Shown here: positions 4,448 through 20,173 of the stretch, piece after piece
Numbering within the stretch: the stretch's first letter is position 1
Layout: every line of letters begins with the position of its first letter
Source: Herminiimonas sp. KBW02
GTDB taxonomy: Bacteria > Pseudomonadota > Gammaproteobacteria > Burkholderiales > Burkholderiaceae_D
Reading direction: 5' to 3'
NCBI RefSeq assembly: GCF_003852535.1
Contig: NZ_QAJP01000007.1
Location: 186,001-250,000, forward strand
DNA length: 64,000 bases
Notes under the pieces: model-generated
Database searches by the model: none
What the model was told of the DNA's origin: nothing
The model's input: the letters and a program-made list of their open reading frames with translations, nothing else
Program-made: the position numbers and the translations under genes

Positions 4448-5768
4448 GGACGCCGTCAAAGAGCGGGATCGCTGGGCAACCACGGATAGCGAAAACTCCG
4501 TAGGCCACAAGAATATGCAGCAGTTGATCCAGCTGCGCTGGATCGCTGTCGTTGGACAAATTACAACGATAGCTGTGGTCACTCTGGGCCTGGGTATTGA
4601 GCTGCCGGTACGGCATATGCTGGAAGTGCTGGTTTGCCTGGTTGCTTTCAATATTGCCAGTCACCTGCGCTGGCACGAACGTCCCAGGGTTTCCAATAGC
4701 GAGTTATTCCTGGCATTGCTGGTTGACGTCGCTATTCTGACTGCACAGCTCTACCTCAGCGGCGGCACCACCAATCCTTTTATCTTCCTGTACCTGTTGC
4801 AGGTCATCCTCAGCGCCGTATTGCTGGAAGCGTGGTCGACCTGGCTCATCGTGGCAATCACCAGTGCCTGCCTGGTTGCCTTGTCGATACTCTCCAGCCC
4901 GCTGACGCTGCCTTACGATCACGAATATCTTGTCTTCAGCATGTATGTGCAAGGCGTGCTGATATGTTTTTCGCTGAACGCCATCCTGCTGGCTTTCTTT
5001 ATTACGCGGATTAAGCGCAATCTGCGCGTAGGGGCGACGCAATTGGCTGACTTGCGCAAGCGTGCAACCGAAGAAGAAAACATAGTGCGCATGGGTTTGC
5101 TGGCTTCCGGTGCCGCACATGAACTGGGTACGCCACTGGCAACGCTGTCGGTGATTCTGGGTGACTGGCGTCGTATGCCCGAGTTCACGAATAATCCTGA
5201 GCTGCAGGATGAAATCGTCGAGATGGAAACGCAGCTGAAACGCTGCAAGTCCATCGTCAGCAGCATCCTGCTGTCGGCAGGGGAAGCGCGCGGTGAATCG
5301 TCGGTGAAAACCACGCTCAATACTTTCCTCGATGATCTGGCGGCAGAGTGGCGCAGCAGCCGTGCGATTACCCACTTTGAATATAAGAACCGCATAGAAC
5401 AGGACATACCTGTGGTATTCGATTCGGTGTTGAAACAAATGATCTGCAATGTATTGGATAATGCGGTCGAAGCGTCGCCGCATTGGGTTCGGCTGGAAGT
5501 ATCAAGTAAGGAAGATGTGCTGACCTTGCTGATTACCGATGCAGGCCCTGGTTTCGCACCGGGTATGTTGTCGCAGATAGGCAAGCCTTATCAATCGACC
5601 AAAGGACGTCCGGGCAGCGGCCTGGGTTTGTTCCTGGTCGTGAATGTTGCACGCAAACTGGGTGGCACCGTCGCCGCCCGTAACCGTAAAGAGGGAGGCG
5701 CAGTCGTTGAGCTGACCTTGCCGCTCTCTGCTATCAGTCTCGACGAGGATGATGAACATGTCGGCTGA
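4416..5768 (+). CDS. regB: RegB/PrrB-type redox-sensing histidine kinase
   Basis: Membrane kinase of 450 residues. The N-terminal half has about six hydrophobic segments (residues 40-200). Between helices, residues 116-122 read GGTTNPF, matching the GGxxNPF quinone-binding heptad of RegB. The phosphoacceptor is H235 in AAHELGTPLATL, the RegB-type H-box. C277 in LKRCKSI is at the position expected for the redox-active cysteine of RegB. N and G boxes (NVLDNAVEA, GPGFAPGM, GSGLGLFLV) complete the ATPase domain. It overlaps the SURF1 gene by 32 bases; an internal ATG at residue 34 is an alternative start. Its place after the cyo genes suggests it senses quinone redox state and adjusts oxidase expression, which is inference. 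Confidence 0.92.
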   Translation: MLGKTEAPASKDAVKERDRWATTDSENSVGHKNMQQLIQLRWIAVVGQITTIAVVTLGLGIELPVRHMLEVLVCLVAFNIASHLRWHERPRVSNSELFLALLVDVAILTAQLYLSGGTTNPFIFLYLLQVILSAVLLEAWSTWLIVAITSACLVALSILSSPLTLPYDHEYLVFSMYVQGVLICFSLNAILLAFFITRIKRNLRVGATQLADLRKRATEEENIVRMGLLASGAAHELGTPLATLSVILGDWRRMPEFTNNPELQDEIVEMETQLKRCKSIVSSILLSAGEARGESSVKTTLNTFLDDLAAEWRSSRAITHFEYKNRIEQDIPVVFDSVLKQMICNVLDNAVEASPHWVRLEVSSKEDVLTLLITDAGPGFAPGMLSQIGKPYQSTKGRPGSGLGLFLVVNVARKLGGTVAARNRKEGGAVVELTLPLSAISLDEDDEHVG

Positions 5769-6297
5769 TAACCGCTTATTGCTGATTATTGAAGATGACG
5801 CGGCGTTTGCCCGCACGCTGGGTCGTTCCTTCGAACGACGCGGCTACACGGTGCTACTCGCTGCCAACCTGGAAGCAGCGAGCGCCTTCTTGCGCGAGCA
5901 CAATCCCGGTTACGCAGTAGTCGATCTCAAGCTGGAGGGAAATACTTCCGGCCTCGCGTGCGTACAGATGCTGCACAAGCATGACCCGACGATGCTGATC
6001 GTAGTACTGACCGGTTTTGCCAGCCTCAATACCGCAGTGGAAGCGATCAAGCTGGGTGCCTGCCAGTACCTCGCCAAACCATCGAATACCGATGACATCG
6101 AAGCGGCCTTCGGTCATGTAGCAGGTGTGGTCGAGATCGAAGTAAGTAATCGTTCGACTTCGATCAAGACGCTGGAGTGGGAGCGCATACATGAAGTGCT
6201 GGTGGAAACCGATTTCAATATCTCTGAAGCGGCACGCAGGCTGGGCATGCACCGACGTACGCTGGCACGCAAGCTGGAAAAGCAGCGTATCAAATAG
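5758..6297 (+). CDS. regA: RegA/ActR/PrrA-type response regulator
   Basis: About 180 residues: a receiver domain, then a short Fis-type helix-turn-helix. Receiver residues visible are the acidic pair in IIEDDAAF, the phosphoacceptor Asp in VVDLKLEG, Thr in VVLTGFAS and Lys in YLAKPS. The C-terminal helix-turn-helix AARRLGMHRRTLARKL is the near-invariant RegA/PrrA signature. ATGs at 5749, 5752 and 5758 are all in frame; the GAGGA at 5744-5748 is best spaced for 5758. It overlaps the end of regB and is its expected partner. No operator site could be identified by eye. Confidence 0.93.
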   Translation: MSADNRLLLIIEDDAAFARTLGRSFERRGYTVLLAANLEAASAFLREHNPGYAVVDLKLEGNTSGLACVQMLHKHDPTMLIVVLTGFASLNTAVEAIKLGACQYLAKPSNTDDIEAAFGHVAGVVEIEVSNRSTSIKTLEWERIHEVLVETDFNISEAARRLGMHRRTLARKLEKQRIK

Positions 6298-6399
6298 TTG
6301 CTTCCTATCGCCCTCGTATGTACACAGCGAGGACTTGTCTGTATGACAGCTTATTTGCAGGCGCTGACATGCTTTGCGGATTTCCTTTAAGCTTCTGCT

Positions 6400-7629
6400 A
6401 TGTCATCGCCAGATTCTCCTATTCCCGCCGCAGTTTCCGCTGTTCCGCCCAAATATTTAAATACCTCCGCCTTGCTCCTGATGGCACTGGCTTCGGGCCT
6501 GTGCGCAGGCGGCAATTATTTCAATCAACCTTTATTGCGTTCGATCGCGCTCAGTTTTGACGTCAGTGAAACAACGGCAGCGTTGACGGTAACGATGGCG
6601 CAGGTATCGTATGCATTGGGCTTGTTGTTACTGGTGCCGCTGGGCGATAAGCTGGAACGGCGTGGCCTGGCGGTCACGCTGATGTTGCTGGCGGCGACCG
6701 GGCAATTCATCAGCGGCTTTTCTTTCAGTATCGCGATGCTGTTTGTCGGCATCATCATGTCGGGTTTGTTTTCGGTCGCTGCGCAAATCATGGTGCCGAT
6801 GGCGGCGACCTTGTCTGATCCGGGGCGCAGTGGTCGTGCGGTCGGGCTGGTGATGAGTGGTTTGCTGATCGGTATCCTGACGGCACGCAGCCTGGCTGGT
6901 TTGTTGTCGGAGCTGGGTGGCTGGACCACGGTGTATCGGGTTGCAGGTGTCGTCATGTTGCTGGTGGCACTGGCCTTGTGGCATTTGTTGCCGCCTTCAC
7001 GTAATCCGGCACGCGTGAGTTATCTGCAAGTCCTGCGTTCGATGACGACCCTGATAGGACGTTATCCGCGTTTGCGCAGTCGCTCGTTAATGGGCGCTTT
7101 AACTTTCGCTTCGGTGAGTGTGCTGTTCTCCACCATGGCTTTGTTATTGTCGGGGCCGAACCACGGTTTGAGCGACGCTGGCATCGGTTTGGTGGGGCTG
7201 GTCGGCATTGCCGGTGCCTTGATGGCGAGCGTGGCCGGACGTCTGGCAGACAAAGGCTTTGGTGTGACGACCAGTATCACTTGCCTGTTGTTGCTCTTGC
7301 TGGCCTGGGTTTGTTTCTGGCTGGGCAGCACCAGCCTGATGTGGTTCCTGGTCGGTATGCTGGTGATCGATCTGGCGCTGCAAGGTTTGCACATTACGAA
7401 TCAGAGTGTGGTGCTGCAACTGGAACCGCAAGCACGTTCACGCCTGAATGCAGTGTATATGACGAGTTATTTTATCGGCGCAGCTTCCGGTTCCGCGCTG
7501 GGTTCATTGGCATGGCGTCTGGGGGGCTGGCATGCGATCTGTATAGCCGGTGTCTTGCTGACTCTGCTGGCCGGTGTAGTGTTCTTGTATGACCGCAAAC
7601 TGGCACGCGCAGAATTAAAAGCAACATGA
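6400..7629 (+). CDS. Major facilitator superfamily transporter (sugar-efflux/YgaY-like)
   Basis: 409 residues with about twelve hydrophobic segments and the MFS loop 2-3 motif GDKLERRGLA near residue 85. The N-terminal stretch GGNYFNQPLL resembles the NYYNQPLL segment of proton-driven efflux permeases such as YgaY. Substrate cannot be read from sequence. It ends in ATGA overlapping the next gene, an acetyltransferase, so the two are probably cotranscribed. The 102 bases between regA and this gene show no strong terminator. Confidence 0.85.
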   Translation: MSSPDSPIPAAVSAVPPKYLNTSALLLMALASGLCAGGNYFNQPLLRSIALSFDVSETTAALTVTMAQVSYALGLLLLVPLGDKLERRGLAVTLMLLAATGQFISGFSFSIAMLFVGIIMSGLFSVAAQIMVPMAATLSDPGRSGRAVGLVMSGLLIGILTARSLAGLLSELGGWTTVYRVAGVVMLLVALALWHLLPPSRNPARVSYLQVLRSMTTLIGRYPRLRSRSLMGALTFASVSVLFSTMALLLSGPNHGLSDAGIGLVGLVGIAGALMASVAGRLADKGFGVTTSITCLLLLLLAWVCFWLGSTSLMWFLVGMLVIDLALQGLHITNQSVVLQLEPQARSRLNAVYMTSYFIGAASGSALGSLAWRLGGWHAICIAGVLLTLLAGVVFLYDRKLARAELKAT

Positions 7630-8090
7630 GTACTTATCCAGACCAACATCTGTCCACCGTCGAAGTCGGCGAGTTCGCATTGCTGACAGAGATCTGGGAA
7701 CAGTCAGTACGCGCGACGCACGACTTCCTGAGCGAAGCAGATATTCAGGATCTCAAACCGAAAGTATTGAACGACTATTTACCGCTGATGGCTTTGCGTG
7801 CGTATCGTGATGACGATGGAAATCTGCAGGGATTCATAGGCGCATTGAATGGCAAGATAGAGATGCTGTTCATCGCACCCGATAGTCGCGGTCGCGGCAT
7901 AGGCAAGGCGCTGGTGCGCTATGCAGTCGACATCATGGGCGCGCATGCGCTCGATGTGAATGAACAAAACCCGCAAGCGCTGGGTTTTTATCAGCGCATG
8001 GGGTTTCAGGTGACAGGGCGTTCGGCGGCAGACGGGCAGGGCCATCCTTTTCCCTTGTTGCATATGACCTTAGCGACTGCCCCCGCTTAA
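7626..8090 (+). CDS. GNAT-family N-acetyltransferase, YjaB-like
   Basis: 154 residues forming one GNAT domain. The acetyl-CoA binding loop is DSRGRGIGKAL near residue 80 (family RxxGxG/A). The segments SVRATHDFL near the start, LDVNEQNPQALGFYQRMGF and VTGRSAADGQGHPFPLLHM follow the E. coli YjaB pattern. Substrate is unknown. It overlaps the preceding MFS gene by four bases (ATGA), so its substrate may relate to the exported compound; that is speculation. Confidence 0.86.
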   Translation: MSTYPDQHLSTVEVGEFALLTEIWEQSVRATHDFLSEADIQDLKPKVLNDYLPLMALRAYRDDDGNLQGFIGALNGKIEMLFIAPDSRGRGIGKALVRYAVDIMGAHALDVNEQNPQALGFYQRMGFQVTGRSAADGQGHPFPLLHMTLATAPA

Positions 8091-8100
8091 ACTTTCCTGC

Positions 8101-9036
8101 TCAATACGTTGCTGCCCAGATACCGGTACGTGCGGTAGTCGGTGCTATCTCGCGCAAGCTCCAGCGCAACGGGATTGCATGTGCCTGCCACCAGCCACCA
8201 GTGATGTGGAAGCGCCACAGGCGTTCCGCACCAGTCAATGCCGCCGCTTCTTTCGATTGCCACAGGACTTCGGTTCTGCCTTGCAGATGCAATAAGCTAC
8301 CGCTGGCGTAGTCTATGAAGAGCAGGGCGGCGCGCGGTTCCAGCAACATATTGCCGAGCGTATTGAAATACTTGTTGCCGTTGAAGTCCGGTATCGTCAG
8401 CGTGTTGCCATCAATACGGATGAAGCCCGGCATGCCACCTCGGTGCGAGATATCCGGCCCGCCCATATTCGTTTCATGCGCGCCTGAAGTGGTCGCCACA
8501 AAAAGACTATCTGCGTGATGGATCAGCTCGCGTGCAGCTGCGTCCAGTTCGGTAAAACTTTGCGCAGGCAGTGCAATCTCGCCCGACGGCGCGGTTTGTA
8601 CATCACGCAGTTGTATATATCGCGGGCAGTTGCCGAACGATTGCGTCACGCTGATATGCACGCCATTGTCGCCCGCGTCCTGAATCACGCCGTTCGCGCG
8701 GTTGCGTCTGCGCGTGTTGAAGTCTATGCCGAGCATACCTACTTGCTGACCAGTGACAAATTGCTCCTTGCTGATGCCGGGCCAATGCGCATCTGCCGCG
8801 ATGTGCAAGTGCATGGGATCCGGTGACGAGACGAAGCCTGCCGCGCCGGTCACGATGGTGGCGACCGGCCAGCCGCTGTCGTCAGTCGTGGCGAGCATCA
8901 GATAAGGCAGCAATGGGAAGAATAGCCGGTGCTGTTCCGGCATGAAGTTACGGATGGCAGCAGCAGGCGTACCGCTGCCTGCCAATGCATGCGCTTGCAC
9001 TTCTCCAGTATGAAAGAGCTCCGGCTGGATGTTCAT
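8101..9036 (-). CDS. Pyridoxamine 5'-phosphate oxidase-family FMN-binding protein
   Basis: About 311 residues starting at the ATG at 9036, which overlaps the stop of the upstream GST gene (ATGA); a longer frame to 9174 lies inside the GST gene and is rejected. The split-barrel flavin-binding family is suggested by FFPLLPYLMLATTDDSGWPVATIVTG, summarised here by its LATTDDSGWP core, and by the second half with NYFNTLGNMLLEPRAALLF-type segments (GNMLLEPRAALL). Members of this subgroup are often annotated as flavin-nucleotide-binding proteins; the true substrate is not known. It shares an operon with a glutathione S-transferase and is divergent from a LysR regulator, suggesting a small detoxification module. 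Confidence 0.8.
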   Translation of the reverse strand: MNIQPELFHTGEVQAHALAGSGTPAAAIRNFMPEQHRLFFPLLPYLMLATTDDSGWPVATIVTGAAGFVSSPDPMHLHIAADAHWPGISKEQFVTGQQVGMLGIDFNTRRRNRANGVIQDAGDNGVHISVTQSFGNCPRYIQLRDVQTAPSGEIALPAQSFTELDAAARELIHHADSLFVATTSGAHETNMGGPDISHRGGMPGFIRIDGNTLTIPDFNGNKYFNTLGNMLLEPRAALLFIDYASGSLLHLQGRTEVLWQSKEAAALTGAERLWRFHITGGWWQAHAIPLRWSLREIAPTTARTGIWAATY

Positions 9037-9659
9037 GCTGCTTCCGGTATCGCTGAACGTGGCATTGCCACAAAGCCAGGCAACTGCTCTATGCGTGCCA
9101 GCCATGCACGTACGGCCGGATACTGATCCAGCGGAATGCCGCCTTCCGGTGCATGTGCCACATACGAATGGCAAGCCAGGTCGGCGATGCTCGGATGATC
9201 GGTCGCAAGGTAGTGGCGCGTGGCGAGATGCTGCTCCATAAAGGCGAGCAAATCATGGCCGATTTCGGCTGCACGGACCGGATCATCCTTACCCATTTTC
9301 CATAAACGGTAGATGCGCGCATTGGCCGGGCCGTAACGCAATTCGCCTGCTGCTATCGATAGCCAGCGCTGAACCTGTGCAGCACCGATGGCATCTTCCG
9401 GCAACCACAGACTACCCGCAGCGTAACGTTTGGCCAGATACACCAGAATGGCATTGCTGTCGCTCAGGACCAGGTCGCCGTCACACAGCACCGGAATCTG
9501 GCCGAGTGGATTGAGTTGGCGGAAATCAGCAGAGGCGCGCAGCGCCGCATCCGCATTCACTGCTTCAAATGGGATATTGAGCAGGTTCAGGAACAGGGCG
9601 ACGCGATGGCAGTGGCCGGACAGGGTGACGCCATAGAGTTTGATACCGGGGGTACTCAT
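9033..9659 (-). CDS. Glutathione S-transferase
   Basis: 208 residues with the two-domain GST layout. The N-terminal thioredoxin-like domain starts KLYGVTLSGHCHRV, contains the cis-Pro loop GQIPVLCDGDLVLSDSNAIL (the DSNAI part binds the glutathione gamma-glutamyl group), and is followed by an all-helical domain with PSIADLACHSYVAHAPEGG. The catalytic residue is probably a Ser or Thr near residue 12-14. The stop overlaps the next gene. A Shine-Dalgarno (AGGAG on the minus strand, 9663-9667) precedes the start. The 102-base gap to the LysR gene at 9762 is the likely shared regulatory region. Confidence 0.9.
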   Translation of the reverse strand: MSTPGIKLYGVTLSGHCHRVALFLNLLNIPFEAVNADAALRASADFRQLNPLGQIPVLCDGDLVLSDSNAILVYLAKRYAAGSLWLPEDAIGAAQVQRWLSIAAGELRYGPANARIYRLWKMGKDDPVRAAEIGHDLLAFMEQHLATRHYLATDHPSIADLACHSYVAHAPEGGIPLDQYPAVRAWLARIEQLPGFVAMPRSAIPEAA

Positions 9660-9761
9660 GATTTACTCCTTCAGTTTTGGTGACTAGATCTTATGTATTC
9701 CTTAAATTGATGTAAATTAGGTGAAATTGAAATTTACTGTTTCACAAATAGGAATAGTCAT

Positions 9762-10661
9762 ATGGATAGACTGGACGAGCTGGAAGTCTTTATCGCCATC
9801 CTGGATAGCGGCAGCCTGATCGCTGCCAGCCGTAAACTCCGGCGTTCGCCGCCAGCTATTACGCGGGCCCTGGGCTCGCTGGAAGAGCGTGTCGGCACCC
9901 GTCTGTTTGAGCGCACAACGCGTCGTCTGGTGGCGACTGAAGCGGGCTCGCGCCTGGCGCAACATGCGCGACGTGTACTGGCTGATTACGAGGAGACCGT
10001 GCAGGAAGATGCGTCCGCGCCTTTACGCGGCGTGTTGCGGGTAACCGCGCCAGTTGTGTTCGGGCGGCGGCATATTGCGCCCATCGTTAATAGCTATCTT
10101 GATCAGTATCCGGAGATGCGGGTAGAGCTGGTAACCAATGATCGCAATCTGGATTTGATAGAGGAAGGGATAGATGTCGGCGTGCGCATCGGTACGCTGG
10201 CAGATACCAGCATGGTGGCGCGTCGGGTCGGGCAAGTACAAAGCTTGCTGGTCGCCAGTCCGGACTATATTGCGCGCAAGGGCAAGCCGGAATCGATAGC
10301 TGACATTGCCGCGCATGATGTAATTTTTACGGCGATACGTGAAAAAGCTCCTGAATGGCGCTTCCGCCATAACGGACGTGAACACATTGTGGCCCTCGCA
10401 CCACGTTTGATCGTGAATGAAATTGATGCGGTATTACTGGCAGCCAAAGCTGGCCGTGGCCTGGCGCGCGTGTTGTCGTATCAGGTTGCAGATGAGTTGC
10501 GCGCCGGCACCTTGTTGCGCGTGTTGCCTGAAATCGAATCACCGATGTTACCGGTACAACTGATCGTACCCAGCGCGCGCCTGCTGGCAGCCAAATCAAG
10601 AGCTTTCCTTGATCTTGCCATCAGCAAATTAGGTACATTAAACGTTATCCAGACTTCCTGA
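9762..10661 (+). CDS. LysR-family transcriptional regulator
   Basis: 299 residues, the standard LysR size. The N-terminal winged helix-turn-helix covers residues 1-60 (MDRLDELEVFIAILDSGS, AASRKLRRSPPAITRALGSLE, GTRLFERTTRRLVATEAG in short pieces). A ligand-binding domain of the CrgA/AaeR-like subgroup follows (VLRVTAPVVFGRRHIAP). It is transcribed away from the GST/PNPOx pair, the classic arrangement for a LysR regulator and its targets, so it probably controls them. The AT-rich 102-base gap is the likely operator, but I could not assign a specific T-N11-A site with confidence. Confidence 0.92.
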   Translation: MDRLDELEVFIAILDSGSLIAASRKLRRSPPAITRALGSLEERVGTRLFERTTRRLVATEAGSRLAQHARRVLADYEETVQEDASAPLRGVLRVTAPVVFGRRHIAPIVNSYLDQYPEMRVELVTNDRNLDLIEEGIDVGVRIGTLADTSMVARRVGQVQSLLVASPDYIARKGKPESIADIAAHDVIFTAIREKAPEWRFRHNGREHIVALAPRLIVNEIDAVLLAAKAGRGLARVLSYQVADELRAGTLLRVLPEIESPMLPVQLIVPSARLLAAKSRAFLDLAISKLGTLNVIQTS

Positions 10662-11093
10662 TGTTTTGCGTTTAAGTTCGCTTAACATTCGACATCACCC
10701 GAGGTTTTTATCGCTTCTTGCCGGGAACAGGCGCGTCAAGGTTACGTCTGTTTTAATCCCATCTTTTTATTCAGCGTGTACGAGTTTTGCTGAATCCGTT
10801 TTTTCATTTCTTCCGTATAAGTATCCATGACGAATCAGTTTCTATTTGTCAACGAACGCTGTGTAAAGTACTTGGTATTAAAGTTGACAAATGTAAATGA
10901 ACTTATGCGCCATTTGTGACTCATGTTATAAATGTTGATAACGAGAATTTAATACTTTGCTCTAAGGGCTGTTTTGTTTGCAAGAGACAGGAGAGGCATA
11001 CCCGGCATCAAGCGCTGCAAATCTAAGAAACCAATCAATAAGTTGTCGAGTTTGTTGGCAAACGACAATTTTTATAGAAAGGACAATAGGCGC
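10662..11093 (+). promoter_or_regulatory. Long non-coding upstream region of the wecB-nfr cluster with inverted repeat
   Basis: 432 bases without a credible gene. A perfect 10-bp inverted repeat, ATTTGTCAAC at 10844-10853 and GTTGACAAAT at 10883-10892, is separated by 29 bases. A third related element, CATTTGTGAC at 10911-10920, pairs with the ACAAATG at 10887-10893. The right arm contains a consensus -35 hexamer TTGACA (10884-10889), but no well-spaced -10 follows it; TATAAA at 10927-10932 is another -10-like element. A frame open from a TTG at 10974 extends wecB by 40 residues and is not preferred. The layout suggests a regulated promoter with dimer binding sites. Confidence 0.5.
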
Positions 11094-12281
11094 ATGAAAA
11101 TACTTTCAATTTTTGGCACGCGTCCCGAAGCCATCAAAATGGCCCCATTGGTACGCACCCTGGAACAGGCCGCCAGCATCGACTCGGTGGTTTGTATTAC
11201 GGGGCAGCACAGAACCATGCTGGAACAGGTAATGAACCTGTTCGACATCAAGGCTCATCACGATCTCGATGTGATGGTGCCGAACCAATCCCTGAATTCC
11301 CTGTGTTCCCGCATTTTTGCCAAGCTTGATCCTATTCTGGAAAGCGAACGGCCGGATCGTGTACTGGTGCATGGAGATACCTCAACAGCAATGGTGGCAG
11401 CGACTGCAGCATTTCACCGGCGCATCCCGGTGGGCCATGTGGAAGCGGGTTTACGCACCGGCGACCTGAGCCAGCCATGGCCGGAGGAAATGAACCGGCG
11501 CGTGATTGACGTCATGAGCGATTTCCTGTTTGCGCCGACCGTCAGTTCACGCGATAACCTGCTGCGCGAGAATCTCGGTGGTCGTGTTGTCGTAACCGGT
11601 AATACGGTGATCGACGCCTTGCAATTGACAGCGCAGCGCCTGAATAAGGATACGAACCTGCGCGCGAAACTGGATGCCAGGTTTCCCTTCATTACACCGG
11701 AACGCCGCATCTTGCTGGTTACCGGTCACAGGCGTGAAAACTTCGGTGACGGTTTTGCGCATATCTGCGAAGCATTAGCAGAGCTGGCCAGGCGTCCCGA
11801 CATCGATATCGTCTATCCGGTACACCTCAATCCCAATGTGCGCGGCCCGGTTCAGCAGTTGCTGTCGAACCTGCCGCGCGTGCATTTGATAGAACCACTG
11901 GATTACCTCGAGTTTGTGCGCCTGATGCAGTTGTCGCACGTGGTACTGACGGATTCCGGCGGTGTGCAGGAAGAAGCGCCGTCATTGGGTAAACCGGTAC
12001 TGGTCATGCGCGATGTCACTGAGCGTCCGGAAGCGGTAGCCGCCGGAACAGTACAACTGATAGGAACCAGCAAGAAACGCATTGTCGATGGAGTCGATCT
12101 CCTGTTCGATGATGAGAAAAAATACCGTCAGTTTTCCAATGTTGTGAATCCTTACGGCGACGGCCACGCTTCGTCGCGCATCGTGCGCGCCCTGCTGGGC
12201 AAGGATTTCGAAGAATTCAATACCGACGCTGATGCAGCCCTCAGCGAATTTATCTCCCGAGGAAATTATGCGCGTACTTAA
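11094..12281 (+). CDS. wecB: UDP-N-acetylglucosamine 2-epimerase (non-hydrolysing)
   Basis: 395 residues from the ATG at 11094, behind AAAGGA at 11079-11084. The enzyme interconverts UDP-GlcNAc and UDP-ManNAc in the cytoplasm. Family signatures are IFGTRPEAIKMAPLV at the N terminus, HGDTSTAMVAA, the HVEAGLRTG segment with PWPEEMNRR, TGHRRENFG and DSGGVQEEAPSLGKPVL. Catalytic acidic residues and His are in these motifs. It overlaps the next gene (BcsB-like) by 14 bases. In E. coli wecB is also nfrC, one of the genes needed for phage N4 adsorption. Finding it in front of nfrB and nfrA is strong context for a ManNAc-containing glycan. Confidence 0.95.
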   Translation: MKILSIFGTRPEAIKMAPLVRTLEQAASIDSVVCITGQHRTMLEQVMNLFDIKAHHDLDVMVPNQSLNSLCSRIFAKLDPILESERPDRVLVHGDTSTAMVAATAAFHRRIPVGHVEAGLRTGDLSQPWPEEMNRRVIDVMSDFLFAPTVSSRDNLLRENLGGRVVVTGNTVIDALQLTAQRLNKDTNLRAKLDARFPFITPERRILLVTGHRRENFGDGFAHICEALAELARRPDIDIVYPVHLNPNVRGPVQQLLSNLPRVHLIEPLDYLEFVRLMQLSHVVLTDSGGVQEEAPSLGKPVLVMRDVTERPEAVAAGTVQLIGTSKKRIVDGVDLLFDDEKKYRQFSNVVNPYGDGHASSRIVRALLGKDFEEFNTDADAALSEFISRGNYART

Positions 12282-14522
12282 TCGCATCTCTGAGCCATCA
12301 CATAGCCGGATGCCATCCCGTTCATCCTTGTTCAGGCCGCTACTGGCTACAGTCCTGTTGTCCGCTGTTACTGCCAGCGCCTGGTCAGCAGACGGCGTAG
12401 GGCGTCATTTCCTGCAAATGGCGTCGGATCAGTCGGTGATGCGTCAGGTGACATTGAAAGAGCTGGGCATCACCAATCCTATAATCTTTACCGGTGCTGA
12501 AAGTCAGCGCGAATTATTCCTGCCGGTCCCTGCCGGTGTGCCGGTGATGAATGCTTCCCTGCAATTCAATGCGAGTTATCTGCGCGCTGACGGTGGTCGT
12601 ACTTCGATGGCTTTGTCGATCGATGGTTATCCGACGGTTGCGCGCAGGCTGGCGGAAGATCAGGGCGACCTCAGCCAGGGGATTGCGATTCCCGGACAAG
12701 CGCGCAACGATGGTTTTGTAAAGTTTGGTATCACCTGGTCTTCGGTGATATCGGAGACTGTGTGTAGCGACCAGCGCGCTCCGGGTAATGCCTTGAGGGT
12801 AGAGCCCAGCTCACGGTTTACTTATAGCTATGATCGGAGCGCGATCAAATCAATCGCCACTGCGTGGAGCGCCTTACCACCGAATCCGGTCTTGCTGGTA
12901 TCCGGCCGCAACCTTACTCCGGACGCTTACGATACTGCATGGCGTATGGGCCTGACCCTGAAGCGTGCCGGCAAACGGCCGCGCTGGATGGCGTTGCCGG
13001 CAGTGGGTGACACCGTCAATCTTTCCGCGATCAGCGTACCTCCCGAGTTGCGTGTCGTCCCTTCATTTGCTTCTTTAATGAATGGTGATGCGCAATACAA
13101 GATCAAGAACAATGCGGAAATCGCAGCCTTGTTCATTCTTGGTAACCAGGGACAGTTCCGCGCTGATCTGGTGGTGGCTGATGCGGCGATGAATACCAAT
13201 CTGCGCAATGCGATGAATGCGCTGGGGGCGGAAATTCAGGCGAGTTCACCGGATTCCGGTGCAATCTTCCAGAACTGGCTGAAAACCGATGTGGCCATCC
13301 TGGATCAACCCAATCAAGCTGACCAGGTTCGCCTGGCTTCCTTCGTCGGCAGCCCGGTCATCATGGTAGCGGCCAAAGGCGGCAAGAATGCGCCGCTTTG
13401 TTCGATACCTTGTGGCGCCCGATAGCCGCTTCCAAAGATCTGACGGTCGAGTCAGCTGAAGCGTTGCGCGCCAAAGCGTCCACTGTATTGCTCAGTCAGT
13501 TCGGCGGTATCAACGGTACGATGGAAGTGTCGGAAAAAGCCGAACGTGCAGTCTCATTCGAAATTGGCGAGCTGGTGGGCAGTGGCCGCCTGCCTAGCCA
13601 GGTCGTGTTTGATCTGTCCGCGGCTCCCGGTACCAATGGCGAAGCGCCGGTTGCTTCCATTTTCATGAATGACTATTTGCTTGGTGCGCACGTGATGACG
13701 GCGGACGGCAAGCCGCATCGTGTCGCGGTGGATATCCCGTACTACACACTGGCGGCACGCAACATCATACGTATTGTTTTCATACGTCAGTCTTCCAAGC
13801 AGCATTGCCATGACACGACGACTTCATTCCCGGTCGCGATTTTTCCGGGCAGTCATTTGAAACTGAAGCAAATGGCACCTGGCGATAACTTCGTCGGTAT
13901 TGCGGCACGCTATGCGAAAGAAAGTACGCTCATCGTCAAGGACGCATGGCTGCAGGATGCGCCGGTGATGTTGCCGATGACGGTACGTATGGCGGACGCC
14001 GCGGGTTTGTCTTCTATACATAGTCAATTCTCTGTACTGAAGCAGGGCGAAGCCCTGAAGCCGAGCACGCCATTCCTGGCGCTGGATGCGCCGCCGGAAG
14101 GCAAGGCTGCGGCTGAAGAGCATAACGGTATGCTGGTGCTGAACGGTGCGGAGAAAAAACCTATCCTGCAATTGAAAGGACTGGATCGCATCGGTGTGGC
14201 GGAAGTGGTCGAAGTCAACGGTCAGAGCGGCATCCGTTTCTATAGTGTGGGTAAAAACATGCCGGTCCTCAGCAGTTCCTTCCGTCTGGCACATGGCAAT
14301 CTGGCGGTGATTACCGATGCCGGGCCAGTACTGCAAATTGACAAGAACGATCCGACCGATAGCCGGTTTGCGAAGGAAGATAATCCCCAATCCATATGGC
14401 AGCGTCATATGGAATGGTGGCTGGCTGCGATTGCAGTGATTATCTTTATCCTGATCTCTGCACGCGTGGCACAAGTTCGCCGCAACAAGCGTAAAGCGGC
14501 GGGATCGCAACAGGGTCTGTGA
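12268..14522 (+). pseudogene. BcsB-like periplasmic polysaccharide-synthase subunit, split by a one-base frameshift
   Basis: Start ATG at 12268 behind GAGGAAA. The first frame gives a signal peptide (LFRPLLATVLLSAVTASAWS) and BcsB-like carbohydrate-binding segments (RELFLPVPAGVPVMNASLQF), then stops at 13425. The second frame resumes with AALFDTLWRPIAAS from about 13392 and runs to 14522, ending in a transmembrane anchor (WWLAAIAVIIFILISA) and a basic tail. The joint is at 13387-13398, where GCGCCGC would read GCGGCCGC if one G were added. The repaired product is 751 residues, the normal BcsB size. BcsB is the inner-membrane-anchored periplasmic partner of cellulose synthase. The rest of the frame is intact, so this may be a sequencing error, a recent mutation or, less likely, recoding. 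Confidence 0.8.
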
Positions 14523-14523
14523 T

Positions 14524-16668
14524 TTGAGTGCCGATTCTCTATTCTGGCCGATATTCTTTGCGCAGTATTACAGCGTACTGGAGAGCATTGGTGTCGTAGT
14601 GGCGGTGCTCATCATGATCTCCAGTTTTGATGATTTGTTTATCGATGGCTGGTACTGGACGCGTGAGATTATCCGGAAATTCAGGTTCCGGAATAATGAC
14701 AGCTATCGTCCGTTGACGCCGGAACAAATCAAGGAGCGCGAAGAGCAACATCTGGCGATCATGGTGCCAGCCTGGCTTGAGTATGACGTGATCGCGCAGA
14801 TGATAGAAAGCATGGTGGCGACGCTTGATTATCGTAACTACACCGTGTTCGTCGGTACTTACGTCAATGATCACAGAACGATAGAAGAAGTGGAACGCAT
14901 GCGACGTCGCTATAAGCAATTGCGCCGTGTCGAAGTGCCGCATGACGGTCCTACCTGCAAGGCCGATTGCCTGAACTGGGTGATACAGGCGATTTTCCTG
15001 CACGAGCAGCAAGCCGGGATCGAATTTGCCGGCGTCATCCTGCACGATAGTGAAGACGTGTTGCATCCGCTGGAACTGAAGTTTTTCAATTATCTGTTGC
15101 CGCGTAAAGACATGATCCAGTTGCCGGTCGCCTCGCTGGAGCGCGAGTGGTATGAATTGGTGGCAGGTGTTTACATGGATGAGTTTGCCGAATGGCATGC
15201 CAAGGATCTGGTGGTGCGTGAAAGCGTAACAGGTACTGTGCCATCGGCCGGTGTAGGCACCTGTTTCTCGCGCCGTGCCTTGCTGGCACTGGCTGCGATT
15301 ACCGATAACCAACCGTTCAATACGGAAAGCCTGACCGAAGATTACGACGTCGGTAATCGTCTGGCAGCGATGGGCATGAAAGCCATCTTTGCCGTGTTCC
15401 CGGTTGATTTCGTCACCCGCGGGCGGCGCTGGTTTGGCCTCGGCCCGGACCAGGAGCGCGTCATACGCATGCCTTTATGTGTACGCGAATTCTTCCCCGA
15501 TACATTCCGCACTTCGTACCGGCAAAAGGCCCGCTGGGTGCTGGGTATCAGTATGCAGAACTGGGAACAGATGGGCTGGCGTGGTTCGTTCGCGCATAAA
15601 TATCTGTTGTTCCGTGATCGCAAAGGGATAGTGACCTCCATCGTCAGTGTGGTGGCGTATGTGCTGTTCTTCCAGTTCATTCTGTTTTATCTGGCGCATC
15701 TGGCTGGTATCTGGACGATGGAATTTCCCAGTATCTTTGTCGAGGGTAGCTGGTTGCAGTGGGTGGCTCAGTTCATTCTGTTTGCACTGGCCTTGCGTGT
15801 AATCCAGCGGTTTTACTTCGTGGCGCGCCTGTACGGTTGGGAACATGGCCTGATGTCTATCCCGCGCATGGTAGTGGGCAACGTCATCAACTTCATGGCG
15901 GTATGCCGCGCATGGAAACTGTTTTCCGGCCATATGCTGATGGGGAAAAAGATGGTCTGGGACAAGACCATGCACGATTTCCCGACTACTTCGCAATTGG
16001 TGCAGAAGCGCCAGTTGCTGGGTGAAGTGCTGACGGCATGGCAAGCGGTTGATGCTGACAAGATGAACAATGCCCTGGAAGAACGCGAAAAAACGCATCG
16101 GCCACTGGGCCGTATCCTGATTTCGAACGGCTGGCTGGATGAAGAAACGCTGGCTGAAGCGATCGCCTTCCAGTCCGATCTGCCGCGTGCCAATCTGGAT
16201 GCGGAACTGATAGAGAAGTATGCCGGTTATTTACCGCTGGAGCTGTGTGTGCGCCTGCGCATGCTGTACATCGGGAATGATATGCACAATCGCCCGTTGG
16301 TCGTGGTGGCGGCACCGCTGACACAGGAAGAGATGCAGGAAGTATCCATTGTGTTTGGCCAGGACCCGGCGCTGCGCATTGCGCGTGATAGTGAAATCGC
16401 CGCCGGCTTGCGTTTCCTGCGTGGTGAAACCGATGCCTTCCGGCCGCTGCCGGAAGGCGCTACCGGTGTACCTCTGCTGGGCGATTTGCTGATAGAGCGC
16501 GGCCTGGTACGGAGGGAAGCATTCGATGCTGCGATGGATGCTTACCGGCCGGAAGAACATGGGCGCATTGGTGATTATCTGGTTGCCAGCGGTGTCATCG
16601 AACGTCATGTCATAGAACAGGTAGTGGAAGAACAACGTCGTCTGCGTGCAGCACAAGAGAGCCATTAA
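14524..16668 (+). CDS. nfrB: NfrB-like processive glycosyltransferase with C-terminal MshEN-type modules
   Basis: 714 residues from a TTG start behind AGGG at 14512-14515. It is an inner-membrane GT2 synthase. The N-terminal helix is followed by the GT2 core: KADCLN, the ILHDSEDV acidic motif, SLTEDYDVG and QKARW (QxxRW). The segments HDSEDVLHPLELKFFNYL and AGVGTCFSRRA closely follow E. coli NfrB as I remember it. Several helices lie at about 375-460. The C terminus carries an MshEN-like repeat at 527-550 with a GspE_N-like fold, and a second tandem pair at 651-674 and 681-704 (RIGDYLVASGV with Gln 704). MshEN repeats bind c-di-GMP, so activity is probably switched by that messenger. It sits between the BcsB-like gene and nfrA. 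Confidence 0.93.
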   Translation: MSADSLFWPIFFAQYYSVLESIGVVVAVLIMISSFDDLFIDGWYWTREIIRKFRFRNNDSYRPLTPEQIKEREEQHLAIMVPAWLEYDVIAQMIESMVATLDYRNYTVFVGTYVNDHRTIEEVERMRRRYKQLRRVEVPHDGPTCKADCLNWVIQAIFLHEQQAGIEFAGVILHDSEDVLHPLELKFFNYLLPRKDMIQLPVASLEREWYELVAGVYMDEFAEWHAKDLVVRESVTGTVPSAGVGTCFSRRALLALAAITDNQPFNTESLTEDYDVGNRLAAMGMKAIFAVFPVDFVTRGRRWFGLGPDQERVIRMPLCVREFFPDTFRTSYRQKARWVLGISMQNWEQMGWRGSFAHKYLLFRDRKGIVTSIVSVVAYVLFFQFILFYLAHLAGIWTMEFPSIFVEGSWLQWVAQFILFALALRVIQRFYFVARLYGWEHGLMSIPRMVVGNVINFMAVCRAWKLFSGHMLMGKKMVWDKTMHDFPTTSQLVQKRQLLGEVLTAWQAVDADKMNNALEEREKTHRPLGRILISNGWLDEETLAEAIAFQSDLPRANLDAELIEKYAGYLPLELCVRLRMLYIGNDMHNRPLVVVAAPLTQEEMQEVSIVFGQDPALRIARDSEIAAGLRFLRGETDAFRPLPEGATGVPLLGDLLIERGLVRREAFDAAMDAYRPEEHGRIGDYLVASGVIERHVIEQVVEEQRRLRAAQESH

Positions 16669-19196
16669 TGAAAAAAACAAATCTTCTTTTATTGCTGTTG
16701 ATGAATGCAGGCATGCTGACGCATGTCGCTGCGGAAGAAACTGATGTGCCATTGAGCGGGCCCGCTTATGAAATGGCGGACGCTGCTTACAAGTCCTACG
16801 CAAAGGGTGATTATGCGAAGGCTGCAGAGCAGGCTAAGGAAGCCGCACGCTTACGTCCGGATGTGGCGCGTCTGAAGCAATTACAGGCACAGGCGGAAGC
16901 GGCGCAAAAGAACAAGCAACAGGCTGCAGCTGCGGCGAAGGCAGTACCGAAGGCCGCAGCGCCTGCCAGTAATCCGGCCTACCTGGCCGCTGACAAAGGC
17001 TATAAGGCCTATGACAAAAAGGATTACGCCACAGCGATCAGCCATGCACAGAATGCAGTGCGGCTGGCACCGTCTAATGCAGCGTACTGGACTTTGCTGA
17101 TTAATTCCCAATTGGCGGCGCAGAGATTTAATGATGCGGATCAGAGTGTGACAGAGGCACTGCAACGTTTTGGTCCGCGTTCTGCTTTTGCGCATGAACG
17201 TGTAGTGGTGAATCAGAACCTGGCTGGCGCAGCCGGTGCACAGATTTATCAGGCGCTCGAGCAACAGGACTACGCCAAGGCAGTGGATGCGGCGCAACGT
17301 GCAGTGAAGTACGCGCCGGAACGCCGCGTGTATCGCTTGCTGCTGGTGCAATCGTTGCTGGGTGCGAATCGACTGGATGAAGCGTCGCAGGCGCTGGAGC
17401 CCTTGCTGCAACAAGGAAATGATCCGGTCGCACTGACCTGGCGGGCTTATGTCAGGCAGCGTCTGGGCCAGCGTCAGATGGCAACTGCCGATTTTGCGCA
17501 AGCCTTGTCCATGCGCGGCAGTATGTCGACTGAAGACATGGTCAATTTGCGCCTCATCATTGCCGATGCAGGTCTGCAGGCAGGTGATCCGGATGCAGCC
17601 TTGCAAGTGCTGGAGTCGCTGGATGGTAACGCTGCCGTTGCCGCCCGCAAACGCAGTGCTGCGGAATTGCGTCTGTGGCAGGCCAGCCAGCAAAACATAG
17701 CGAGTACCCAGACCATGCCTCCGCCAGCCTTGCGTTGCCGCGGCGCTGCGAATGCAGAAGTGTGCGGCCTGGTACCGGGCAGCGCACCGCTGGACCCTGC
17801 ATATGCCAGCGCTGATGCTGCGTACAAGGCATTGGCCAGCAACGATTATCCGCAGGCATTGAGCAATACAAGGGCAGCTTTGCAGAAGTCGCCGGGCAAT
17901 CCCGCCTATCAATTATTGCTGGTGAATATCCTCAGTCGCGACAAGCAACTGGAAGCCGCCGAACGTGAAGCGACGCTGGCGATCAACAATGGTAACCGCG
18001 ATCCTGAAATGCTGGCGCAACGCGGACGCGTACGCGAAGCGCTGGGTAAAAAGGAACTGGCCGAGCAAGACTATAAAGATGTTTTGCAGCTGGGTACTGC
18101 CTCGGTACCGCTGCAGATCAATATGCTGTCCCTCCTGCATGAGCGCAAGGAGGCAAGTCGTCGTTACCATGCCGCTGAAGAAGCAGGCGTGTTCGATGGC
18201 ATGCCCAAAGTTGAACAAGCTTACGTAGCAACATCAGCCGGCGAGAGTGCGCGTGCCTTTACCCTGTTTGACCAGGCTGACCGGGAAGGCAGCCTGCCAC
18301 CGGCGGCGATACCGGATACCGCGTATGCGGCCTTGAGTGCACGACGTGATCCGGATGCTTCGAAGTATTTCCGTCGTACCGTGGATGCGGTGGATAAGGG
18401 CGATATTGCGCTCACGCCGCAACAACTGTTTGAAACCCGTCGCGCGATTGCCGACATAGAACGTACCTGGGGTGCGACTGCGTCACTGAATTATCGTGGT
18501 GCCAGCCTGCAGCCAGGTTCCGGTATCACACCTGGCGGTACGAATAACAGTGCACAGATAGGTGGCGAAGTATATTGGCGGCCATTCGGTTATCGCAGCG
18601 GACGGCCGATCGAGATTTATGCGAGCCTGTTTGAGTCTGTGTATAACAAAAGTAATGCAGTAACCGGTGCACCTACCGCACAAGGTGGTATCGGTATTCG
18701 CTGGAAGCCATTCAGTGAAACCAATTTCATCATGGCCCTGCAACGCCAGATCAAGATCGGTTCGGCATCTGGTGATGGTGACTGGGTGGCACGTCTGGCG
18801 TACTCAAATTCCTTCGGTACCGACTTGCGTGTCGATCAGCCTGGCTGGTGGACTGGTCAGATCTTTGGTGAGGTTGGCCGCTATATAGACAACAAGCAAA
18901 CGTATTCGGTGTTTGAGGGGCAGCTGGGACGTACCTACCGACTGGATAATATCAATCCGAAACTGACGGTCACACCACACGTAGCCCTGGGTTCTGATTT
19001 CAATTCGAGCTTAAGACTGCCGGCGGATAAAACGGCCATCGGTATGGGGCCAGGTGTCAGCATGCGTTACTGGTTCCGCGAAGATCACTACAAGGCGCCG
19101 CAGTCGTATGTCGATTTCTCGCTGCAGTATCGCTTCAAATTGTCCGGTGATGACAGGGCAGAAGGCGTGGTCTTCCGTACCACGCTTGCTTACTGA
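16668..19196 (+). CDS. nfrA: NfrA-like outer-membrane glycan exporter with TPR-type repeats
   Basis: 842 residues with a signal peptide (residues 1-22). Helical repeats share the pattern AYxxADxxYKxYxxxDY at about 33, 104 and 378, each followed by TPR-like pairs. From about residue 600 the sequence becomes beta-rich with alternating polar/aromatic strands and ends in RTTLAY, fitting the NfrA C-terminal barrel. The layout parallels BcsC, PgaA and AlgK/E: periplasmic TPR scaffold plus outer-membrane pore. It starts inside the nfrB stop (TAATG). In E. coli NfrA is the phage N4 receptor component that exports the NfrB product. Confidence 0.92.
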   Translation: MKKTNLLLLLLMNAGMLTHVAAEETDVPLSGPAYEMADAAYKSYAKGDYAKAAEQAKEAARLRPDVARLKQLQAQAEAAQKNKQQAAAAAKAVPKAAAPASNPAYLAADKGYKAYDKKDYATAISHAQNAVRLAPSNAAYWTLLINSQLAAQRFNDADQSVTEALQRFGPRSAFAHERVVVNQNLAGAAGAQIYQALEQQDYAKAVDAAQRAVKYAPERRVYRLLLVQSLLGANRLDEASQALEPLLQQGNDPVALTWRAYVRQRLGQRQMATADFAQALSMRGSMSTEDMVNLRLIIADAGLQAGDPDAALQVLESLDGNAAVAARKRSAAELRLWQASQQNIASTQTMPPPALRCRGAANAEVCGLVPGSAPLDPAYASADAAYKALASNDYPQALSNTRAALQKSPGNPAYQLLLVNILSRDKQLEAAEREATLAINNGNRDPEMLAQRGRVREALGKKELAEQDYKDVLQLGTASVPLQINMLSLLHERKEASRRYHAAEEAGVFDGMPKVEQAYVATSAGESARAFTLFDQADREGSLPPAAIPDTAYAALSARRDPDASKYFRRTVDAVDKGDIALTPQQLFETRRAIADIERTWGATASLNYRGASLQPGSGITPGGTNNSAQIGGEVYWRPFGYRSGRPIEIYASLFESVYNKSNAVTGAPTAQGGIGIRWKPFSETNFIMALQRQIKIGSASGDGDWVARLAYSNSFGTDLRVDQPGWWTGQIFGEVGRYIDNKQTYSVFEGQLGRTYRLDNINPKLTVTPHVALGSDFNSSLRLPADKTAIGMGPGVSMRYWFREDHYKAPQSYVDFSLQYRFKLSGDDRAEGVVFRTTLAY

Positions 19197-19285
19197 CATC
19201 TTGCTGCGTGGATATGAAGCGCGTGTCGATTTCCCCCTGATGCTTAAAGAGTGCACAATGAACTACTTTATCGTCAGGGATCGCC

Positions 19286-20173
19286 ATGCCGTCCGCAGTT
19301 GAAACCAGCTTCTTTCCCTCCGTACGACCTTTCCTCGTTCGCTGTTTGCTGCTTTCCGCATTATTAGGTGGCGTCAGCATGCTCACTGCTTGCGCATCGA
19401 CCATCAGCGGCGTCGTATGGCAGCCTGAAAATGCACTCATCGATCCCAAAGGGAAATGGGATCAGATAGGCGCGCGTCAGTTATTGATCCAGTGGACAGC
19501 TGTCGACAACATCGCATTCGTCAGCGGTGCCGGGATACCGACGGCGCCCAGGTTGCCGGACTGGCCGCGCATCGCCGCCGAACCGTGGGCCAAGGAAGTC
19601 ATACTGGGCCTGGCCGGATATTTTGACGAGACCAGGGCACGTACCAAGCTGGATGAGCTGGGCGCATTGTCCGAGCGCCTGGCCAGGCTGCCGACGCCGT
19701 TGAATGTGGTCGGCTGGTATTTCCCGGTAGAGATAGACCCGACCTGGGGTGACGCGCCCAAGCTGGCAGCCGTCCTGAACAAGTTGCCGCGTCCTTTGTG
19801 GATCAGTGTCTATGACAGTGCGAATGTCGGGCCGGATGATGTGGCGAAGTGGCTGGAAGTCTGGTTGCCGAAAGATGTCGGTGTGTTTTTTCAGGATGGC
19901 GTCGGCGTGCATGCGCGTGAGGCCAGCGTCGCACTTGATTATGTGACCGCGATGGAAAAGCGTCTGGGTAAGAATCGTGTGCGCGTGATCGTCGAAGCAT
20001 TCCGGCCGCAAGTCGGTGGCGGCTTCCGCGCTGCGACTGCGGCTGAACTGATGCCGCAACTCAAAACCTACGGTGCGCGTCAGGTATATTTATTTGACGG
20101 TCCGCATTACGTGCCGGACACGCTGGTGGATGAACTCAAGGCTGGCTTTGCGCAAGATAGCAAGCAGCCTTGA
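19286..20173 (+). CDS. Putative lipoprotein next to nfrA (YbcH-like, possible glycan-active protein)
   Basis: 295 residues. A hydrophobic N terminus ends in the lipobox LTAC with the lipidated Cys at residue 36. The mature part begins SGVVWQPENALIDPKGKW and has QLLIQWTAVD, a pattern that recalls DUF4434/YbcH-type proteins with a TIM-barrel-like, glycosidase-related fold; this is recognition by eye. E. coli carries ybcH beside nfrA/nfrB, which supports the link. A CAGGGA precedes the ATG. It lies 90 bases after nfrA on the same strand and is the last gene of the cluster. No catalytic acids can be assigned safely. It might trim or retain the exported glycan. Confidence 0.7.
   Translation: MPSAVETSFFPSVRPFLVRCLLLSALLGGVSMLTACASTISGVVWQPENALIDPKGKWDQIGARQLLIQWTAVDNIAFVSGAGIPTAPRLPDWPRIAAEPWAKEVILGLAGYFDETRARTKLDELGALSERLARLPTPLNVVGWYFPVEIDPTWGDAPKLAAVLNKLPRPLWISVYDSANVGPDDVAKWLEVWLPKDVGVFFQDGVGVHAREASVALDYVTAMEKRLGKNRVRVIVEAFRPQVGGGFRAATAAELMPQLKTYGARQVYLFDGPHYVPDTLVDELKAGFAQDSKQP

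Follow-up and report, generated by a model that had tools for sequence, protein, structure and literature searches.

A predicted exopolysaccharide gene cluster of the NGR/PGR kind, with a BcsB-family subunit, in Herminiimonas sp. KBW02

Results

Here, we describe a five-gene cluster in Herminiimonas sp. KBW02 (Burkholderiales), a strain whose 3.64 Mb genome is a draft assembly of 16 contigs. The cluster lies in a stretch of 64,000 nucleotides (contig NZ_QAJP01000007.1, positions 186,001 to 250,000), referred to below as the window, and consists of wecB, a bcsB-like gene, nfrB, nfrA and a ybcH-like lipoprotein gene, all in one direction (Table 1). We propose that it is very probably a synthase-dependent exopolysaccharide system of the NGR/PGR kind, in its BcsB-containing form. 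This is based on gene content, gene order, protein families, conserved linkage and predicted folds.

An earlier note on this DNA had reported the same gene order, with overlaps of 14 bases between wecB and the bcsB-like gene and of 1 base between nfrB and nfrA, and all of this is seen here; the identical 14-base overlap occurs in the relatives L030, L031 and L032 (L numbers denote the loci compared). The start that it had set for the cluster, 10844, falls in the AT-rich intergenic stretch, the first gene beginning only at 11094. A promoter likely lies in this stretch; a consensus scan gave no promoter-like site on the + strand 5' of wecB, and its 6 promoter-like sites are fewer than in shuffled sequence (mean 8.1). 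The description of the cluster as self-contained stands in that it holds its own epimerase gene, and is qualified by a second WecB-family place in the genome (G000:C11, 238 bits).

Table 1. Features of the cluster, with positions in the window
Feature	Position	Strand	Evidence and remarks
AT-rich intergenic stretch 5' of wecB	10662..11093	+	G+C 0.39, against 0.55 for the window
wecB / nfrC, non-hydrolysing UDP-N-acetylglucosamine (UDP-GlcNAc) 2-epimerase	11094..12281	+	TIGR00236 475.6 bits, cut-off 210; Epimerase_2 400 bits
bcsB-like, 5' piece	12268..13425	+	PF03170 19.0 bits; ends in frame change near 13,390-13,400
bcsB-like, 3' piece, C-terminal membrane anchor	13398..14522	+	PF03170 15.8 bits; one hydrophobic segment, residues 342-360 of the piece
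nfrB, membrane family-2 glycosyltransferase, C-terminal MshEN motifs, TTG start	14524..16668	+	NF012033 1168 bits
nfrA, periplasmic tetratricopeptide repeat (TPR) region and outer-membrane C-terminal domain	16668..19196	+	NfrA_C 197 bits; TPR families
ybcH-like lipoprotein, predicted TIM-barrel glycosidase-like fold	19286..20173	+	DUF4434 29.2 bits; lipobox-like LTAC in sequence

The product of the bcsB-like gene is a true BcsB-family subunit. Each of the two pieces in the window stays below the PF03170 cut-off of 21 bits. The intact protein of Herminiimonas contaminans, the closest named relative at the locus (L035; NfrB 96% identical), scores 35.2 bits, above that cut-off. Matches to the family at E ≤ 0.01 are also given by 34 of 35 relatives, taken from those 77 named loci, described below, in which a bcsB-like gene is present. 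The H. contaminans protein is modelled at a pLDDT of 86.3 with a C-terminal helix (residues 709-744), and in a Foldseek search with this model ranks 1-22 were BcsB-containing entries (best E 1.6e-26; TM-score 0.34-0.50 by query length); BcsB itself ends in a long C-terminal helix with a role in BcsA-BcsB. The BcsB alignment, used as a profile against PDB sequences, gave 0 matches. In E. coli K-12, nfrB, nfrA and ybcH stand side by side with neither bcsB nor wecB adjoining, bcsB being elsewhere in the genome. The earlier claim of a BcsB-type partner that the E. coli nfrBA-ybcH operon lacks is thus borne out by the E. coli locus, by PF03170 and by the fold.

NfrB lies well above the cut-off of its family profile (NF012033/PRK15489, cut-off 537 bits; Table 1) and is 38% identical to E. 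coli NfrB. Its D175, T271-E272-D273 and Q334..W338 line up with the active-site motifs of that protein (D169-type aspartate, TED and QxxRW). The C-terminus matches MshEN in two stretches (NF053729, 82 bits), and profile searches of NfrB gave no PilZ match. E. coli NfrB binds cyclic di-GMP (c-di-GMP), and changes at L490, G491 or L537 have an effect (PMC8669469). The equivalents of the first two are kept (L499 and G500), and I547 replaces L537, so that the c-di-GMP switch suggested in the earlier note is plausible from the residues present. With 33 GGDEF places the genome has c-di-GMP signalling, the GGDEF domain nearest to the cluster being at 26267-26746 of the window, in a long minus-strand frame about 6 kb downstream. 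Short NfrB proteins of 565-573 residues, without the C-terminal part past the first MshEN stretch, occur at L033, L118, L119 and L120; at L034 and L130 the NfrB match covers the synthase part only.

The linkage of these genes is conserved among relatives; its absence would have refuted the reading of wecB and the bcsB-like gene in the earlier note. A scan of named genomes with the NfrB alignment gave at least 594 candidate stretches, 569 of them confirmed, from which we took the best 80, those nearest to the query; the hidden Markov models for the gene calls were rebuilt with hits from these 80 loci themselves. A bcsB-like gene lies upstream of nfrB on the same strand in 77 of the best 80 named loci (within 400 bases in 76), a co-directional wecB is found in 72, nfrA follows directly downstream in 73, ybcH is present in 65 and all five genes in 58. 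Four of the 8 wecB misses have less than 2.2 kb of contig upstream, and four of the 15 ybcH misses less than 1.3 kb downstream. The three loci without a bcsB-like gene are Collimonas.

Even genome samples of the order and the class were added, with at most three candidates per genome scored in the rows considered. As read from the match table, an NfrB that includes the synthase domain is found in 14 of the 300 order genomes (window included); the remaining matches shown fall almost entirely on the MshEN part. Among the 13 besides the window, a bcsB-like gene is present in 6 and absent in 5, the contigs of L121 and L126 ending at nfrB. In the class sample, 8 of 369 genomes (window included) pass E ≤ 1e-60; the other seven comprise L129 with a split bcsB-like gene, L130, L131 and L132 with none shown, L133 and L135, which are cut by contig ends, and L134. 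L134 itself is a distant NfrB-like cluster in which a separate PF03170 gene (140 bits) adjoins wecB and a TPR protein (13528-15768), a BcsB linkage outside the main branch of the tree described next.

A tree was built from the synthase domains of 101 NfrB proteins. It places all 86 BcsB-linked rows and the three from Collimonas in a single branch (support 100), with E. coli NfrB in a separate one (7 rows, support 95). The BcsB label requires 2 changes on this tree, against a mean of 14.2 when shuffled, and none of 500 shuffles came as low; L134 carries the label of loci without bcsB (under the 60-bit limit) despite its PF03170 gene, and a count that took this gene as present might need one change more. 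The tree is a quick one in which long branches meet (L131, L034, L130, L134 and others), making their places unsure; L030, L115 and L117 (duplicates of named genomes) and L121 and L135 (partial) were left out. Since the BcsB-linked rows form one well-supported branch, the hybrid between cellulose-type and Nfr-type secretion suggested earlier is not upheld: on this tree the BcsB-containing form is one branch of a widespread family, and no chance, fresh or local hybrid. For Collimonas, where L063, L070 and L102 keep wecB-nfrB-nfrA-ybcH without bcsB inside the BcsB branch, loss of bcsB is apparently the simplest reading, the change count itself giving no direction.

NfrA carries the NfrA_C domain (PF13283, 197.4 bits). 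The lipoprotein is, judged by sequence, a YbcH relative: it aligns with E. coli YbcH by blastp (26% over 216 columns, E 2e-7), and it stays below the cut-offs of NF007404 (PRK09936; 43.6 bits, cut-off 344) and, narrowly, DUF4434 (cut-off 30). Its model, built with 26 relatives, is a confident TIM barrel (pLDDT 91.1). At E ≤ 0.001 Foldseek returned only three chains of the putative alpha-L-fucosidase 4h41 (best E 2.7e-5, TM-score about 0.5), followed by PgaB hydrolase domains (1.4e-3 to 3.4e-3) with non-glycosidase barrels close behind. E137, D139, D192 and E225 (numbering of the window protein, 19322-20170) are invariant in 16 YbcH proteins drawn from both NfrB branches; the members from the branch other than that of the window share 19-24% identity with the window protein. 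In TIM-barrel glycosidases two glutamates usually follow different strands, an earlier and a later one. Based on the barrel with its glycosidase-like best matches and on the four acidic residues invariant in both branches, we predict that YbcH is probably a polymer hydrolase.

This enzyme role is an addition of the present analysis. In A. baumannii, PgrE resembles the PgaB C-terminus (PMC12507263), and E. coli YbcH has been treated as a putative scaffold, dispensable for phage N4 (PMC8669469). Our literature searches found no paper on DUF4434, among the papers listed only PMC8669469 concerning the function of YbcH by its title, and only PMC12507263 joining three of PgrE, PgaB, glycoside hydrolase and NfrB; a profile search of PDB sequences with the YbcH alignment gave one match (E 1.3). 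YbcH is an accessory component, since it is not needed for N4 in E. coli and was not found in eight named Stenotrophomonas loci (L062, L071, L088, L093, L094, L103, L112 and L114), where about 10 kb downstream gave no YbcH profile match even at E ≤ 10. A second placement of a YbcH-like gene is seen at L129 (13772-14881, 164 bits) and L105 (5316-6353, 148 bits), where DUF4434 genes lie beside nfrA on the strand opposite to the cluster. No sign was seen that the barrel of N4 gp64 is kin to YbcH: with a single-sequence template hhalign gave a probability of 0.3%, and no viral protein matched at E ≤ 0.001.

In E. coli, N4 infection needs the NfrB active-site residues and WecB, and MshEN changes reduce it (PMC8669469). 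N4 gp64 is a TIM-barrel tail protein, and relatives of it are present in 322 of 50,697 phage records, including 223 from Escherichia, 22 from Pseudomonas, 17 from Achromobacter and 15 from Acinetobacter. Coverage of at least 80% is reached in 42 records, several of them duplicates (17 Achromobacter, 15 Escherichia, 6 Pseudomonas, 2 Delftia and 2 Phobos). A gp64 relative (72% coverage) is carried both by Escherichia phage Halfdan, whose host is E. coli MG1655, and by a variant whose host is Pseudomonas taiwanensis. All 21 Pseudomonas rows of the NfrB tree, which were picked by similarity to the query, have the BcsB-type cluster. As far as phage records and tree rows go, this suggests that the polymers of the two NfrB branches may be similar.

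In the window the bcsB-like gene is broken into two overlapping frames, and in four relatives of the genus (L030-L033) it is a single intact frame of 739-751 residues. Compared separately with H. contaminans, the 5' and 3' pieces have ratios of nonsynonymous to synonymous change (dN/dS) of 0.090 and 0.056, the value for an intact pair (L035-L031) being 0.089; no break is seen in the other four genes (0.025-0.076). Because both pieces are constrained like intact copies, the break is either recent or a sequencing error. These two explanations concern the state of bcsB only and are alternatives to each other, not to an NGR/PGR-type assignment. We give about an even chance to an assembly or sequencing error in a fully intact cluster, to which the low dN/dS of both pieces and the draft state of the assembly point; against it, no homopolymer of more than 3 bases is visible at the frame change, longer runs being the usual context of such errors.

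An inactive cluster, or one in early decay, with bcsB lost, for example under phage pressure, is a serious prospect that we put somewhat short of an even chance. In A. baumannii, phage escape mutants carry insertions in the bcsB homolog, and disrupted loci occur in natural isolates (PMC12507263). The frame is split in the window itself, and two more split bcsB-like genes (L087 and L129) are found among 88 loci with a match, three of which are duplicates. Against decay, the constraint on the pieces and the four intact genes mean that a break would have to be recent, an error would explain the split as well, and bcsB does not clearly stand out in its breaks: a truncated wecB or a wecB remnant is seen at 2 of 94 loci, in a comparison that leaves out nfrB, by which the loci were selected. 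The idea of bcsB as a breakage hot spot (2/88 against 2/94) was dropped for lack of a clear excess. If the break is real, the strain probably produces no glycan, the system being off.

Discussion

In light of this gene content, how might the cluster work? With substrate, polymerisation, c-di-GMP activation and phage binding carried over from other organisms, WecB would supply UDP-N-acetylmannosamine (UDP-ManNAc), which NfrB in the inner membrane would polymerise while pushing the chain out, switched on by c-di-GMP bound to MshEN. The BcsB-like protein, anchored beside NfrB by its C-terminal helix, would take the chain through the periplasm, the TPR region and outer-membrane barrel of NfrA would pass it to the surface, and the YbcH lipoprotein would probably cut or trim it. 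The surface polymer may serve as a receptor for phages with N4-gp64-type tails.

The cluster is real, well conserved and of an already described kind; the novelty once seen in it does not hold. Linkage of wecB and nfrB was described by Junkermeier and Hengge 2021 (PMC8669469), and clustering of nfrA, nfrB, wecB and a BcsB homolog in Achromobacter by Sellner 2021 (PMC8669472). In A. baumannii, deleting the BcsB homolog in an NfrB/WecB-like locus abolishes phage adsorption, in a 2025 paper that still calls the polymer uncharacterised (PMC12507263). The Achromobacter xylosoxidans cluster, also from a betaproteobacterium, has four components in common with the window and differs in having O-acetyltransferase homologs as well (PMC8669472), none of which lies between the genes of the window. 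AlgX-type genes do lie between nfrA and ybcH at L036 (18118-19110), L041 (15733-19696, with an MBOAT acetyltransferase) and L074 (15350-16336), resembling the case in the 2021 papers. The A. baumannii PGR locus shares a BcsB homolog, an NfrB-like synthase, WecB, an outer-membrane porin, a protein like the PgaB C-terminus and the phage-receptor role; it differs in a degenerate GGDEF protein and, judged by the pgr letters, in an apparently different gene order (PMC12507263).

The E. coli NGR system has NfrB, NfrA and a YbcH-type protein in common with the cluster, with WecB needed as well (PMC8669469, PMC8669472). It differs in that its nfr operon has no bcsB, wecB is in the enterobacterial common antigen operon and NfrB belongs to another branch. 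With bacterial cellulose synthase the cluster shares the BcsB fold and C-terminal membrane helix, and it differs in its synthase family, its expected UDP-ManNAc pathway and its MshEN, where BcsA carries a PilZ domain. A cellulose or cellulose-like glucan as product instead of a ManNAc polymer, to which the BcsB-family subunit could point, is very improbable, given an NfrB-type synthase (1168 bits) with a UDP-GlcNAc 2-epimerase gene in front, the fact that wecB accompanies nfrB with or without bcsB, and a genome in which PF03170 was found nowhere but in this cluster, beside a MshEN-type synthase and no BcsA with PilZ.

Several points weigh against an exopolysaccharide system of the NGR/PGR kind. 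NfrB scores 625 bits on the equivalog profile NF008411, below its cut-off of 1170, and belongs to the wider family rather than to the E. coli equivalog. Among 13 genomes of the genus, of which some are drafts, 8 gave no NfrB synthase and 5, the window's included, have one. The likeness to the A. baumannii locus is drawn from its published description (PMC12507263), which makes kinship of that locus to this branch presumptive, and no glycan structure for any member of these systems was found in the literature searched. On the phage side, 21 of the 322 records matching gp64 are labelled Campylobacter phages, and a 2026 abstract assigns N4 binding to NGR presumably to gp66, not gp64 (PMC12892993). 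Finally, the split bcsB makes function in this very strain doubtful.

Keeping to the NGR/PGR assignment, we tentatively join these threads in one proposal, which is possible but rather unlikely to hold in every part: that YbcH/DUF4434 proteins are dedicated Nfr polymer hydrolases, counterparts of the PgaB hydrolase domain whose invariant glutamates after two barrel strands would be the catalytic pair; that BcsB-containing and BcsB-less Nfr machines would be two old branches with polymers similar enough for one phage tail family; and that the split bcsB here would be a natural phage-escape allele. Little is known of this phage-receptor glycan pathway; our findings place it in an environmental genus of Burkholderiales and assign the BcsB subunit to a whole branch of it. 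A specific hydrolase, if YbcH truly is one, would be a tool to determine the structure of the polymer.

The signs that bear on a possible foreign origin of the cluster are mixed. Its G+C (0.556) is close to that of the window (0.548), and the flanking genes on both sides are the same in H. contaminans and L031 as in the window. In the NfrB tree, NfrB of G009 groups with genomes of other families. At L032, from the same genus, the cluster (5380-18316) lies upstream of a PNPOx-like gene, with the matched flank genes all downstream of it. The matches there to the LysR and acyl-CoA dehydrogenase genes, which flank the cluster in the window, are 12 bases apart; the cluster hence sits elsewhere at L032, either moved or separately inserted.

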